From IMG/VR virus record IMGVR_UViG_3300008448_000506, positions 1-26,998 of that record: 26,998 bases of DNA, one strand, 5' to 3'. This document shows positions 918 through 7,503 of this stretch, piece after piece. Position 1 is the stretch's first letter, and each line of letters opens with the position of its first letter. A program made the position numbers and the translations under genes. The notes under the pieces were generated by a model. That model ran no database searches and was not told where the DNA came from. It was given only the letters and a program-made list of their open reading frames with translations. The stretch is from a virus.

Positions 918-1427
918 CTATTTCTTTTTAATTATTTCACGTAATCTTTCGATAAAGGTTAAATTGGTTTCACCGTCAATCTCTTTTAATTTTTTCTGAG
1001 CCCAAGCAATTCCTTCGTCCCCTCCCCAGCTGTACCACATAAGACGACCACAACCGTCACCTAGTTTTTTATCTGAGTATTGTCTATGTCTTTCAAAAGC
1101 TGACATTCTAGCAATGGTATCTCTTGATATTGGTTCTTTGTTGGCTAATTGGTTTGCTCTTGCTTTTCCAACTGGTGTACCACAAGAACCCCATCCATTT
1201 TCATCAGCCCAACGCAACGCAATCTTTGCGTTTTCTGATGCTGCTTCTGGATAATCAGTATATGATTCTTGAAGGTTATATTCACCGATAGCGGCAGCTT
1301 GTGCCAATGCTTTTTTCTTAGCATATTCATAACTTCTAGTTGAATCACATATATAAAAATACTCGTGACCTTGGTCACCCCATTTTATAAAACATTGTCC
1401 TTGTTTTTTTCCTGTTTTTAGTGGCAT
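918..1427 (-). CDS. Conserved phage protein with WGGDxG domain; homing target
   Basis: The frame is open further upstream, but I choose ATG at 1427, two bases after the preceding stop (1430-1432), giving 169 residues starting MPLKTGKKQG. From about residue 75 it carries a domain I recognise from many phages and prophages, often near or fused to head proteins. Its landmarks are WGSCGTPVGKARANQLAN, SRDTIARMSAFERHRQ, and a C-terminal GCGRLMWYSWGGDEGIAWA. Its biochemical role is not known to me. The N-terminal part resembles the short MPLKxGK leader often attached to this domain. The last 36 residues may be a replacement brought in by the neighbouring endonuclease, since a second diverged copy of the same 3' end lies beyond that gene. 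Confidence 0.75.
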   Translation of the reverse strand: MPLKTGKKQGQCFIKWGDQGHEYFYICDSTRSYEYAKKKALAQAAAIGEYNLQESYTDYPEAASENAKIALRWADENGWGSCGTPVGKARANQLANKEPISRDTIARMSAFERHRQYSDKKLGDGCGRLMWYSWGGDEGIAWAQKKLKEIDGETNLTFIERLREIIKKK

Positions 1428-1429
1428 AG

Positions 1430-1792
1430 TTAGTTCATTAAAAAAATTAGTGTTATGATTATGCTTATGATTGATGGAACCCAACCAATGATAACATCTT
1501 TATCACTATCGAATTTATCTTGGTTGCTAACACCCTTATACTTAGCATACATTCCTTGAACACGTTCAAAGCCCCAGCATATGCAAAATGAAATAAACAT
1601 AGGAACAAAAAATTGAAACCATAATGCTTCACCATTGTTGAATGAATTATGGGTTACGTAAGCTAAGAATGCACCTAGAACCAAACCAACTGGTACGTGT
1701 CTATGCCATCCATTCTTTATCATTTTTTGTTTGCTTTTCATATCTTCTATTGAAGATTTAAATACTTCGATAATATAGTTTATTTTATCCAT
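1430..1792 (-). CDS. Small membrane protein, unknown
   Basis: I place the start at ATG 1792 (MDKINYIIEV), four bases after the stop of the upstream gene. An upstream ATG at 1813 would overlap that gene by 17 bases and add only seven residues. The 120-residue product has an amphipathic N-terminal helix, a WHRHVPVGLVLG segment and three hydrophobic stretches at about residues 33-48, 60-77 and 103-120, the last at the extreme C-terminus. The invariant-looking histidines just before the first membrane segment and the charged linker (GVSNQDKFDSDKDV) recall small membrane proteins of Bacteroidota phages that I cannot name. Position near the holin suggests envelope association. It could contribute to lysis, but nothing proves it. 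Confidence 0.65.
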   Translation of the reverse strand: MDKINYIIEVFKSSIEDMKSKQKMIKNGWHRHVPVGLVLGAFLAYVTHNSFNNGEALWFQFFVPMFISFCICWGFERVQGMYAKYKGVSNQDKFDSDKDVIIGWVPSIISIIITLIFLMN

Positions 1793-3250: not shown

Positions 3251-5029
3251 TTACGATTGTTGTACTATCCAGTATTCAACTCTAGCAGAAATATCCCATT
3301 CTGCATAGATTATGTTCAAAGATGAATTAACGTAACTACCAGCACCTAATTTAACCCATCCTGCTGGAAAACTTGGTGCAGTTGCTGATTGATGATATAT
3401 CTTTTGAACAATACCTATTTTTGCTGAAGTTAAGTCTTGAGTAATACCTGTAGCTGATGATGGTGCTGATGATGAATTATAAATATCTAAACCACTAAAA
3501 GAAATAGTTGAACCAGTTTTTCTAGTTGCTCCAATAGGTAAGTTATAATAAGTTGTTGCAGAAACAGATGTTGCACCTAAACTACCATCAACCTGTAATT
3601 TATAAGCAGGTGTTGTTGTCCCTATACCAACATTATTACTAAAATTTTGAAGAATCAAATCACCACCAGAACCACCACCATTGCTTCTAGAGTTAATACT
3701 AGTATATGTTGAACCAGTTTGACTTAAAAAATATAAAAGAGCTCCAGCACTACCACTACTATAATCTGGTGAAACAATCGTTAATGGTTGAGCATTTTTC
3801 AATAATGTTTGACCTAAAAATGTTTTATTATCATCAATAGTTTCATCATCTGTTAAATGAACAACATTAGAATCATTAGCTGGTGTATAACCTAATACAG
3901 TCGCTATTGATTTATTTTTCCATAATGAAGTTGAACTTTCAAAGAATAAACCTTGATTGTTGGTTGCACCAGAAATGAATACATTATGTAACTCATCCAA
4001 TTCCCAACCATTCATTATTTTCACATATATTTTACCGTTGTTAATATGTGCATATTCAACATAACCAATAATAACGATATGACCAGTACTACCATTAGGT
4101 TTAATATTAGTAAGTTTACCAGGTGTTGTTGGACTAAGATATAATACATCACCATCGGCCCAAGTTTCACCTTGTAATGACCCAGTTGTGTTAATACCTT
4201 CCAATTGACCAACAGTCATAATAAAACCTTCTTGATTTGTTGCAATTGTTTCAATAACAACACCCAATGTATCAGCTGAATTATTATCATTATTAGCTTG
4301 TGCATAAGCAACAGCAAGTCTTTGACCTTGAGCTCCAGATATTCTTACAACTGGATAGTTTGCTTTGGTTAAAGTTGTATTTGGACTTACTTTATTAACA
4401 ACACGTGCAACCAAGTCAATACCATTTTTCAATACAACACTATCACCTTTCAAAGTTGTTTCAGATACACCAAGACTATCATTCCATCTTGTTGTTCCAA
4501 CACTAGTTGTTCCAGTTGGTGTTATGTCTAAAGTAAACTGACCAGCTTTTAAAGCATACTCACCTAAATCAACATTCTTTGTTGCACCAGTATATGGAAC
4601 ATAATCACCAGTTGCAGTTCCACCAGTTATTTCAACCCAAACACCATTGTTTCTACCGTAAGTTATACCAGAAAACGGAGCCTCTTCAACTTTTGAATTA
4701 AGAATAACTACAATATCATTCAACGCATCATTGATGGCTTGAATAGAAGCGTTTATAGCCATCATATCACCAATGTAGGTACTAGCAGATATTTTACTGT
4801 TTAACGTTGATTGTAGGCCTTGTATTTGAGCTATAGTATGTGTATGGTTCAATAAAGAACCATCATTAACTTTAGTAATGGTTACATTAATCAAATCAAT
4901 CTCATCAGCAAATGATGAATCAGCTGCATATAACTCAAGAGTCATTGCATTGATTTTATCCATTGCTACTTTTAACGTATCACCTAGACCACTATCTGCT
5001 GGAGTGTTGTTTATATTTTGTCTAGCCAT
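3251..5029 (-). CDS. Tail fibre protein
   Basis: This 592-residue protein starts with MARQNINNTPADSGLGDTLK, nearly identical to the start of the 144-residue protein encoded just upstream, so residues 1-35 are probably a shared virion-attachment module. A coiled-coil-like region follows to about residue 110. The central part is beta-rich, with VPYTGATKNVDLGEYALKAG, a repeat type common in phage fibres, and low-complexity Gly/Ser/Thr stretches. FSNNVGIGTTTPAYKLQVDG is the GIGTxxPxxKLxV motif that often precedes fibre tips. I see no S74 intramolecular chaperone; the C-terminus ends in a small beta domain (SARVEYWIVQQS). Role: host recognition as a trimeric fibre, inferred from family features and position. 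Confidence 0.8.
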   Translation of the reverse strand: MARQNINNTPADSGLGDTLKVAMDKINAMTLELYAADSSFADEIDLINVTITKVNDGSLLNHTHTIAQIQGLQSTLNSKISASTYIGDMMAINASIQAINDALNDIVVILNSKVEEAPFSGITYGRNNGVWVEITGGTATGDYVPYTGATKNVDLGEYALKAGQFTLDITPTGTTSVGTTRWNDSLGVSETTLKGDSVVLKNGIDLVARVVNKVSPNTTLTKANYPVVRISGAQGQRLAVAYAQANNDNNSADTLGVVIETIATNQEGFIMTVGQLEGINTTGSLQGETWADGDVLYLSPTTPGKLTNIKPNGSTGHIVIIGYVEYAHINNGKIYVKIMNGWELDELHNVFISGATNNQGLFFESSTSLWKNKSIATVLGYTPANDSNVVHLTDDETIDDNKTFLGQTLLKNAQPLTIVSPDYSSGSAGALLYFLSQTGSTYTSINSRSNGGGSGGDLILQNFSNNVGIGTTTPAYKLQVDGSLGATSVSATTYYNLPIGATRKTGSTISFSGLDIYNSSSAPSSATGITQDLTSAKIGIVQKIYHQSATAPSFPAGWVKLGAGSYVNSSLNIIYAEWDISARVEYWIVQQS

Positions 5030-5033
5030 TGTA

Positions 5034-5468
5034 TTATAGGTTATTTATGATGTTATAGATATCAGCAATTTGTCCATTGATTGTTGCTATTTGACCATTT
5101 TGTGTATTGATAATACCATTCATTGTTACAAGAGCAGCATTAATCGTTGCAATATCATCAGCATTAGTATTTGTATTGTTGGTTAAATTAGTAATAGCTG
5201 TATCAACGTCATCTAATATAGCAGATAAACCTGTAACACCAGAAATAGCTATTGTAGTTGGAACATCGTTGATAGTTATGAATGGGTTAACACCATCTTC
5301 ACCATCATTGGTTAAATCAGATGTTTTTGTGATAGCGGTTGCACCAGAAATACTAGCTACGTTATTATATACTTCAGTAAAGTTAGCATTGATTTTATCC
5401 ATAGAAGCCTTTAGTGAATCACCAAGGCCAGAATCTGCTGGGGTATTATTTATATTTTGTCTTGACAT
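5034..5468 (-). CDS. Short fibre protein sharing the anchor of the main fibre
   Basis: This encodes 144 residues. Residues 1-34 (MSRQNINNTPADSGLGDSLK and onward) are close to identical to the start of the 592-residue fibre. The rest differs: a beta stretch (GEDGVNPFITINDVPTTIAI) and then a long heptad-like helical region with repeated Asn/Thr/Ile (DTAITNLTNNTNTNADDIAT, then INTQNGQIATINGQIADIYN), typical of a trimeric coiled coil. It ends without a receptor-binding head. It may be a second, shorter fibre, a whisker, or a length/adaptor subunit attaching through the same site. The start overlaps the small 5446-5562 gene by 23 bases, and the stop lies four bases before the main fibre. Confidence 0.7.
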   Translation of the reverse strand: MSRQNINNTPADSGLGDSLKASMDKINANFTEVYNNVASISGATAITKTSDLTNDGEDGVNPFITINDVPTTIAISGVTGLSAILDDVDTAITNLTNNTNTNADDIATINAALVTMNGIINTQNGQIATINGQIADIYNIINNL

Positions 5469-6075: not shown

Positions 6076-7503
6076 TTAGTTATTAAAAGTTCTTCCTACT
6101 CCTGGTAACTGTGCAGTCACGTCTGGATTATTATCATAGAATACGTCTAAAGCTAGCTCAAGGACCTTGGCCACTTTAGCCTCATTAGAACCTGTAGCGT
6201 AAATTCTAGATTCAGCTATTCCATTTGCTGCTGCATATTCTTTCAAAGCTGAATCATCTGAACGTGCAGAGATTAAATATACATCATTGTTATCAGCAAT
6301 TTCTTTTGCTACCCATTCTTTACCTTTTGCAGTATTAGCTGTTTCATCGAAGTCAAAACCAATTTTCATACCAGCCATTCTAATAGCTTTCATTTGAGTT
6401 GGTTGTGCTTCAGCTGGAGTTTGTACTCTTAATTCTTCGTAATCAACAAAAGCAATTTCAACACTTGGGTCATTTAATTTTAATGCTTGTTCAATACCTT
6501 TGGTAATGATTTTTCTCATTGGATTTATTTGACTTCTATAAAGTATTTTCAATGCTTGAACTTGTTGGTCAGCAGCACTAGAGAAACCTGTTGGTGTTGG
6601 AAGACCAAACAACCCTGGGTCATTTACTTTGTGAGCCATCATTATCTTCTCTCTAGCAGACTTTTCTAAAGTTTCGAACTGTTGGTACGCATCAGTGATT
6701 TCAATTGAATCTACAGTCGTTTTTGAATCTGGGTTATCATTGAAACTAATAATTGGTGTACCAGCATTTGATGTACCAGCCAAGTTACGAGTAATAGCAT
6801 TTATTTGAGCTTCCATAGCTTCATCGGTCCAATCTTTACCTTGATAGATATTAACGATTTTTCCAGCACTAAAATTGTTTTGAATATGTGAGATATAGTA
6901 ATTACTTAATGCTTCTTCTAACTGGCTATATTGAAGCCCAGAAACCCAGTCGGGAAGTGCAAAGAGTGGTTGTGGTGATTGACGTTTGATACATAGTATT
7001 TCAGTCTCGTTGTTAACACCATATCCGAATGCTGGGATTTTATAAGGTTTGAATGTAGTTTTGTTTTTCCAATCGAATGAATACCAGTAACCTTCAATGT
7101 CATCAGATAAATCAGCTTGTTTTTCAATAGCGATTGATTTAGTTGGAACATAAACAAGTTTAGCTGTTCTTTTTTCTTTTGAATAACCATAGATTACTTG
7201 GAAATAACCTTGTCCTTGGATTTTAAAATCTGAAACAAAGTTTCTAAGGTCTTCTTCAGATAAGATTGATTTCAAATCAACGTTACCAGCAATAACCTCA
7301 AGGCCATCTGCTATCACATAGTTCACTACATTGTCAATAATACATTGTGTAGTAGGTGAACCGATATAACATCTTTCAACGTAGTAAAAGAAATCATTAT
7401 CAACACCATTTGTAACATATTTATTTGTTTGTTTAACTAACGTATGTGGATTTGGTCTTACATAGTTATTTAAGTTTATTGGTAATTGTTTTACTTTAAG
7501 CAT
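6076..7503 (-). CDS. Portal protein with C-terminal HAD-like phosphatase domain
   Basis: This encodes 475 residues. Residues 1 to about 365 form a phage portal: DNVVNYVIADGLEV in the N-terminal wing, GYFQVIYGYSKE, LYRSQINPMRKIITKGIEQA near the end of the core, and a helical stem around 270-295. The portal is the dodecameric ring through which DNA is packaged. After a linker (PAEAQPTQ), residues 379-475 show all four HAD-superfamily motifs: FDFDET (Asp384, Asp386, Thr388), VYLISARS (Ser412), Lys443 or Lys446 in SNEAKVAKV, and VFYDNNPD (Asp457, Asp461). The frame is uninterrupted. Portal C-termini usually face the capsid interior, so the extra domain may be enclosed with the genome; a nucleotide- or DNA-end phosphatase role is speculation. 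Confidence 0.85.
   Translation of the reverse strand: MLKVKQLPINLNNYVRPNPHTLVKQTNKYVTNGVDNDFFYYVERCYIGSPTTQCIIDNVVNYVIADGLEVIAGNVDLKSILSEEDLRNFVSDFKIQGQGYFQVIYGYSKEKRTAKLVYVPTKSIAIEKQADLSDDIEGYWYSFDWKNKTTFKPYKIPAFGYGVNNETEILCIKRQSPQPLFALPDWVSGLQYSQLEEALSNYYISHIQNNFSAGKIVNIYQGKDWTDEAMEAQINAITRNLAGTSNAGTPIISFNDNPDSKTTVDSIEITDAYQQFETLEKSAREKIMMAHKVNDPGLFGLPTPTGFSSAADQQVQALKILYRSQINPMRKIITKGIEQALKLNDPSVEIAFVDYEELRVQTPAEAQPTQMKAIRMAGMKIGFDFDETANTAKGKEWVAKEIADNNDVYLISARSDDSALKEYAAANGIAESRIYATGSNEAKVAKVLELALDVFYDNNPDVTAQLPGVGRTFNN

Follow-up and report, generated by a model that had tools for sequence, protein, structure and literature searches.

The portal protein encoded in the analysed DNA, a 26,998-base virus record (IMG/VR IMGVR_UViG_3300008448_000506) referred to in its full length as the window, ends in a HAD phosphatase-type domain (Table 1). 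The occurrence of the same domain on head proteases and on small proteins of related phages suggests that it is an optional single-copy passenger module of the head and packaging apparatus and is not specific to portals. We assign a probability of about 0.5 to the reading that this module is a catalytically competent phosphatase, carried in the virion as a passenger of the head and packaging machinery and acting where packaged or entering DNA is handled; catalytic activity and virion presence are both what we infer for it.

Table 1. Positions of the portal-HAD gene and its parts in the window.
Feature	Position	Strand	Basis
Portal-HAD fusion gene, 475 aa	6076..7503	(-)	Open frame; phrog_33693, E 2e-60; full-length model pLDDT 85.9
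Portal core, residues 1-363	6415..7503	(-)	Structural match to the portals of RcGTA (Z 21.2) and HK97 (Z 19.0); phrog_33693 at residues 9-366
Linker, residues 364-378	6370..6414	(-)	Residues 364-375 at pLDDT <50 in the full-length model
HAD phosphatase-type domain (predicted), residues 379-475	6079..6369	(-)	AlphaFold2 pLDDT 91.8 with 64 relatives; fold matches
Motif I, Asp384 and Asp386 (D-F-D)	6346..6354	(-)	Both Asp invariant, 64/64
Motif II, Ser412-Ala413-Arg414	6262..6270	(-)	Invariant, 64/64
Motif III region, Asn440, Lys443, Lys446	6166..6186	(-)	Invariant, 64/64, but within one search pattern
Motif IV, Asp457-Asn458-Asn459	6127..6135	(-)	Invariant, 64/64

The portal assignment is solid. 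The gene is read without interruption down to the stop codon at 6076-6078, and the portal part, in addition to its phrog family, matches PF04860 and TIGR01540, both under cut-off. The Z scores of the full-length model against the RcGTA and HK97 portals (VIA) refer to residues ~20-378, and the core itself (residues ~18-363) has an HK97/GTA-like fold. Among named phages, Nonlabens phage P12024S has the closest portal found (36% identity over residues 9-352); the C-terminal extension of that portal differs from the HAD extension described here. The window also encodes terminase genes, so that the portal-enzyme fusion belongs to a phage with portal-terminase packaging, and a head protease of the XkdF type (PF14550). 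The fusion protein of the window consists of the portal and the HAD domain only. The sequence-only reading had described it as an in-frame fusion, and this description holds. A frame fusion caused by an assembly or sequencing error has a vanishingly small probability, since further distinct portals, each in an independent record, have this joint as well, and the differences between the window and its relative L002 are mostly synonymous on both sides of the joint.

The 97-residue domain was modelled by AlphaFold2 from an alignment of 64 sequences (the window and IMG/VR loci) with a mean pLDDT of 91.8. The order of alternating strands and helices in the model is that of a minimal HAD domain of the capless kind, and the cap insert between the motifs is absent, the domain being only 97 residues long with short connections. 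An outcome other than a Rossmann-like fold, which would have spoken against the originally proposed HAD domain, was looked for and not seen. In comparisons with the PDB, KDO8P phosphatases were the top Foldseek matches (best E 1e-3), and VIA gave Z scores of 11.6 for phosphoserine phosphatase, 10.8 for the CopA P-domain and 10.1 for T4 PNKP. Universal stress proteins reach Z scores similar to those of HADs, so fold comparison alone is insufficient, and the assignment combines fold with motifs.

Sequence comparisons gave weaker signals. At cut-off, no curated model, for HAD or otherwise, matched the last 97 residues; their only matches are to phage families without an assigned function and, at a weak level, to a 'nucleotidase' family. 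A phmmer search of the PDB with the single sequence returned noise only; the 64-row profile returned weak phosphoserine-phosphatase-like matches. Two other families were considered and rejected, namely Pfam ADH_zinc_N (matched by 43 of the 64 members, best E 2.5e-5) and PADLOC CARF3 (matched by 37/64 members in alignment A2, best E 2e-7). Given the complete set of HAD motifs, both matches are probably due to a similarity common to Rossmann-type folds. Judged from the model and the motifs together, residues 379-475 form a true HAD domain of the phosphatase type, belonging to the capless (C0) class.

Residue conservation was counted over the same 64 aligned sequences. The motif set (DxDx[TV], Ser/Thr, Lys, Asp) is complete, and the motif residues listed in Table 1 do not vary at all, although the T/V position of motif I is not among the invariant ones. 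The fourth position of motif I is Glu in the window alone (D-F-D-E-T), the others having Asp (35) or Gly (28 of 64). The acidic residues proposed for catalysis were checked for conservation, which was confirmed for Asp384, Asp386 and Asp457 but not for the second acid of motif IV: in the 'YDNNPD' stretch that had been proposed as this motif, D457-N458-N459 is constant, whereas position 461 varies (Asp in 50 of the 64, Asn in 8, Glu in 4, and Tyr and Thr once each). The second acid of the D-x3-D form is thus not a conserved feature of the family, yet HAD membership is retained because a D-N form of motif IV is found in some HAD phosphatases. In the predicted chemistry, Asp384 would attack the phosphoester and Asp386 would serve as acid/base, while Ser412 and Lys443 (or Lys446) would hold the phosphate and Asp457 together with Asn458 would bind Mg2+.

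The sequence patterns that fetched most of the relatives include NEAKVAK and K[IV][SG]FD[YF]D[GD], and they bias the columns of motif I and of the lysines; motifs II and IV are unaffected by this bias. All motifs are kept in the copies that were fetched via the portal core alone (L105, L106, L112 and L108, the last being a copy of L060). A loose HAD motif pattern, written with the window sequence in view, was satisfied by 54 of 200,000 shuffled sequences. The extension is a real feature beyond chance, and at least 435 relatives of the 97-residue domain were found in IMG/VR.

The HAD domain is under strong purifying selection, with a constraint nearly equal to that of the portal. Between the window and L002, dN, dS and dN/dS are 0.060, 0.683 and 0.087 for the HAD part and 0.044, 0.585 and 0.075 for the portal part; the linker, for which few codons were compared, has dN 0.17 and dS 0.12. 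The fold might in principle serve only as a spacer or as a protein- or DNA-binding part for which catalysis is irrelevant. HAD-like domains devoid of activity do exist, and several other small modules take the same spot on related portals. Nonetheless, we regard such a structural or binding role as improbable, since it would not require the predicted catalytic residues to be invariant across all carriers, as they are.

In the full-length model, the confident portal core and the HAD domain, itself a separate confident unit, are divided by the low-confidence stretch. The alignment of the core with the RcGTA and HK97 portals runs to residue ~371-378, and hence the HAD domain begins about where the HK97/GTA portal models stop. 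A flexible linker of ~15 residues would tether it to the end of the core and, by homology to these portals, up to twelve copies might stand at the DNA channel, on the side that faces the head lumen. The lumen-side placement put forward in the sequence-only reading is therefore plausible by analogy, and the XkdF-type protease of the window could cleave the domain off.

Three Met codons (371, 376 and 379; window 6367-6393, minus strand) are located where the portal and HAD parts meet, and in several portal-HAD fusions Met-Ala is retained ahead of the HAD domain, resembling the starts of free-standing genes. These residues may be remnants of a start codon or may mark an internal start; no clear Shine-Dalgarno-like sequence, from which a free HAD protein could be initiated, precedes Met371, Met376 or Met379.

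To describe the distribution of the module, loci were gathered with the HAD profile or with the portal core, and distinct proteins were counted. The most frequent carriers are XkdF-type proteases (26 proteins) and small proteins in which the domain follows a Cys-containing module (25). It stands alone in 12 proteins and together with other small modules in 4, and portals account for 11, the domain being either at the very C-terminus (7) or followed by a MuFC-like domain (4). The view of the HAD domain as a special feature of this portal was accordingly abandoned: the same module is found on head proteases and in separate genes near the terminase or protease genes. Almost all small proteins with the Cys module (22/25) are encoded no more than 3 kb from a large terminase gene, against a rough expectation of 23% (binomial 1e-11, a value overstated by the relatedness of the phages). 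One-half of the bare HAD genes (6/12) lie within 1 kb of the protease gene, and 5/12 have a large terminase gene at a distance of up to 3 kb. The link of these small stand-alone forms to the virion is putative. Each of the 30 carrier records contains exactly one HAD module, and none was found elsewhere in the recovered parts of 17 records, most of them partial, that have related portals without HAD.

The search of named phages by tblastn with the HAD domain of the window gave no match, and a search with the domain of a relative gave distant matches only (~30-32% identity), which are annotated as HAD family hydrolase in Flavobacterium elemoviruses. No relative was found in genome_contigs via the sequence patterns used.

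Relatives of the window protein carry further added modules of unknown function (CysM, SYTDYP or MuFC). The MuFC-like module of portals is also fused to XkdF-type proteases (L126, L127, L137, L141 and L106), and HAD is thus not the sole module common to both carriers. A small protein encoded in the window (918-1484, minus strand; phrog_2859, function unknown) consists of two modules, WGDQG and SYTDYP, which also adjoin the HAD module on proteases and portals of related phages. Elsewhere in the window, two minus-strand ORFs (3251-5029 and 5034-5468, together spanning 3251-5468) have near-identical starts of ~30 residues, M[SA]RQNINNTPADSGLGD..., a pattern that duplication of the N-terminal part would produce. 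Another minus-strand ORF (414-905) has a start, YYLYRHIRLDNNEVFYIGIG, that resembles a GIY-YIG nuclease; in Pfam it shows a weak Trp_repressor match at 123-160 only.

Gain or loss of the domain can be followed in closely related portals. The portals of L108, with HAD, and L109, without it, are 92.3% identical, and the similarity of their DNA (92.8%) ends about at the joint and returns at the next gene. Another pair, L074 and L084, has most of a portal in common and differs by a Cys module ahead of the HAD domain. The portal tree shows five changes in the presence of HAD, with at least four changes forced by well-supported branches; such counts do not tell gain from loss. In the tree of the HAD domain, the copies at portal ends cluster (support 92, not starred), and the simplest account is therefore that this portal lineage acquired the domain once and later lost or exchanged it. 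The same tree implies 14 changes of carrier, few of which are forced by supported branches, the alignment having only 100 columns; the case for carrier switching thus comes mainly from the architectures and the near-identical pairs. Pairs of the L108/L109 type indicate that a portal can do without the domain, and these natural pairs make its role directly testable.

Overall, the data speak for an active phosphatase linked to the head-assembly block; the main placements of the module, on the portal, on the protease and beside the terminase, all fall there. A more specific proposal, which we hold tentatively and at somewhat less than even odds, is that a single-copy phosphatase has moved among portal, head protease and terminase-side gene, so that the head/packaging machine receives one whatever its carrier. 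If so, the moved module would be a virion enzyme whose phosphate substrate is handled in packaging or at the start of infection.

Packaging action and host delivery both fit the data, which set neither apart. An enzyme of the packaging stage would act while the head is being filled and need not remain in the virion; its targets might be, for instance, the ends of DNA or RNA, or nucleotides at the motor. We consider this unlikely: the placements in the head/packaging block and the position of most small forms beside the large terminase gene agree with it, but such a neighbourhood equally fits late co-expression, close relatives dispense with the domain at the same portal, and the recovered parts of the 17 related records lack it altogether, so that packaging as such does not require it. 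Alternatively, the head-carried HAD might enter the cell with the DNA and dephosphorylate a host or defence molecule. Its patchy presence is typical of accessory effectors, and portals fused to PBECR, 2H phosphoesterase and InPase domains have been read in this way (PMC5512222). On the other hand, a domain tethered to the portal would need to be cleaved off before injection, and the data point to no substrate or host target, the PADLOC matches being weak and to other folds; an injected effector is possible, though we lean against it. The broader reading of a virion-carried phosphatase covers action at either stage.

Promiscuous Ig-like domains resemble the HAD module in that one domain type occurs on different virion proteins of related phages; they differ in being displayed on the virion surface and in having no enzyme active site. 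The phosphatase domain of T4 polynucleotide kinase/phosphatase (PNKP) is likewise a HAD fold in a phage enzyme, and its VIA match covers 99 residues, but the identity is only 13% and PNKP is a free enzyme with a kinase domain. The same domain as in the window is present in protease and small-protein contexts among the XkdF and 'HAD-like' proteins of uncultured Caudovirales phages in UniProt/BFVD (e.g., A0A6J7WUA4 and A0A6J5MPA4), which are named by the database alone; the three best matches have 38-44% identity, and the portal fusion is absent among the matches listed. A description of a HAD-portal fusion or of the change of carrier was not found in the open-access full-text literature. Enzyme-portal fusions and XkdF or small proteins with the HAD domain are already known, whereas a HAD domain on a portal, of which we found no report, is apparently undescribed. 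The closest precedent is provided by the 'polyvalent proteins', in which PBECR, 2H phosphoesterase and InPase domains are fused to portals and delivery into the host has been proposed (Iyer et al., 2017; PMC5512222). They share with the window protein a small, optional, modular enzyme domain on a portal and portal-terminase packaging. The present case differs in its HAD phosphatase fold, not found in that paper, and in that the module also occurs on head proteases or in a small gene of its own; a conserved single-copy enzyme domain with a varying carrier offers a handle on whether and why phages carry head phosphatases.
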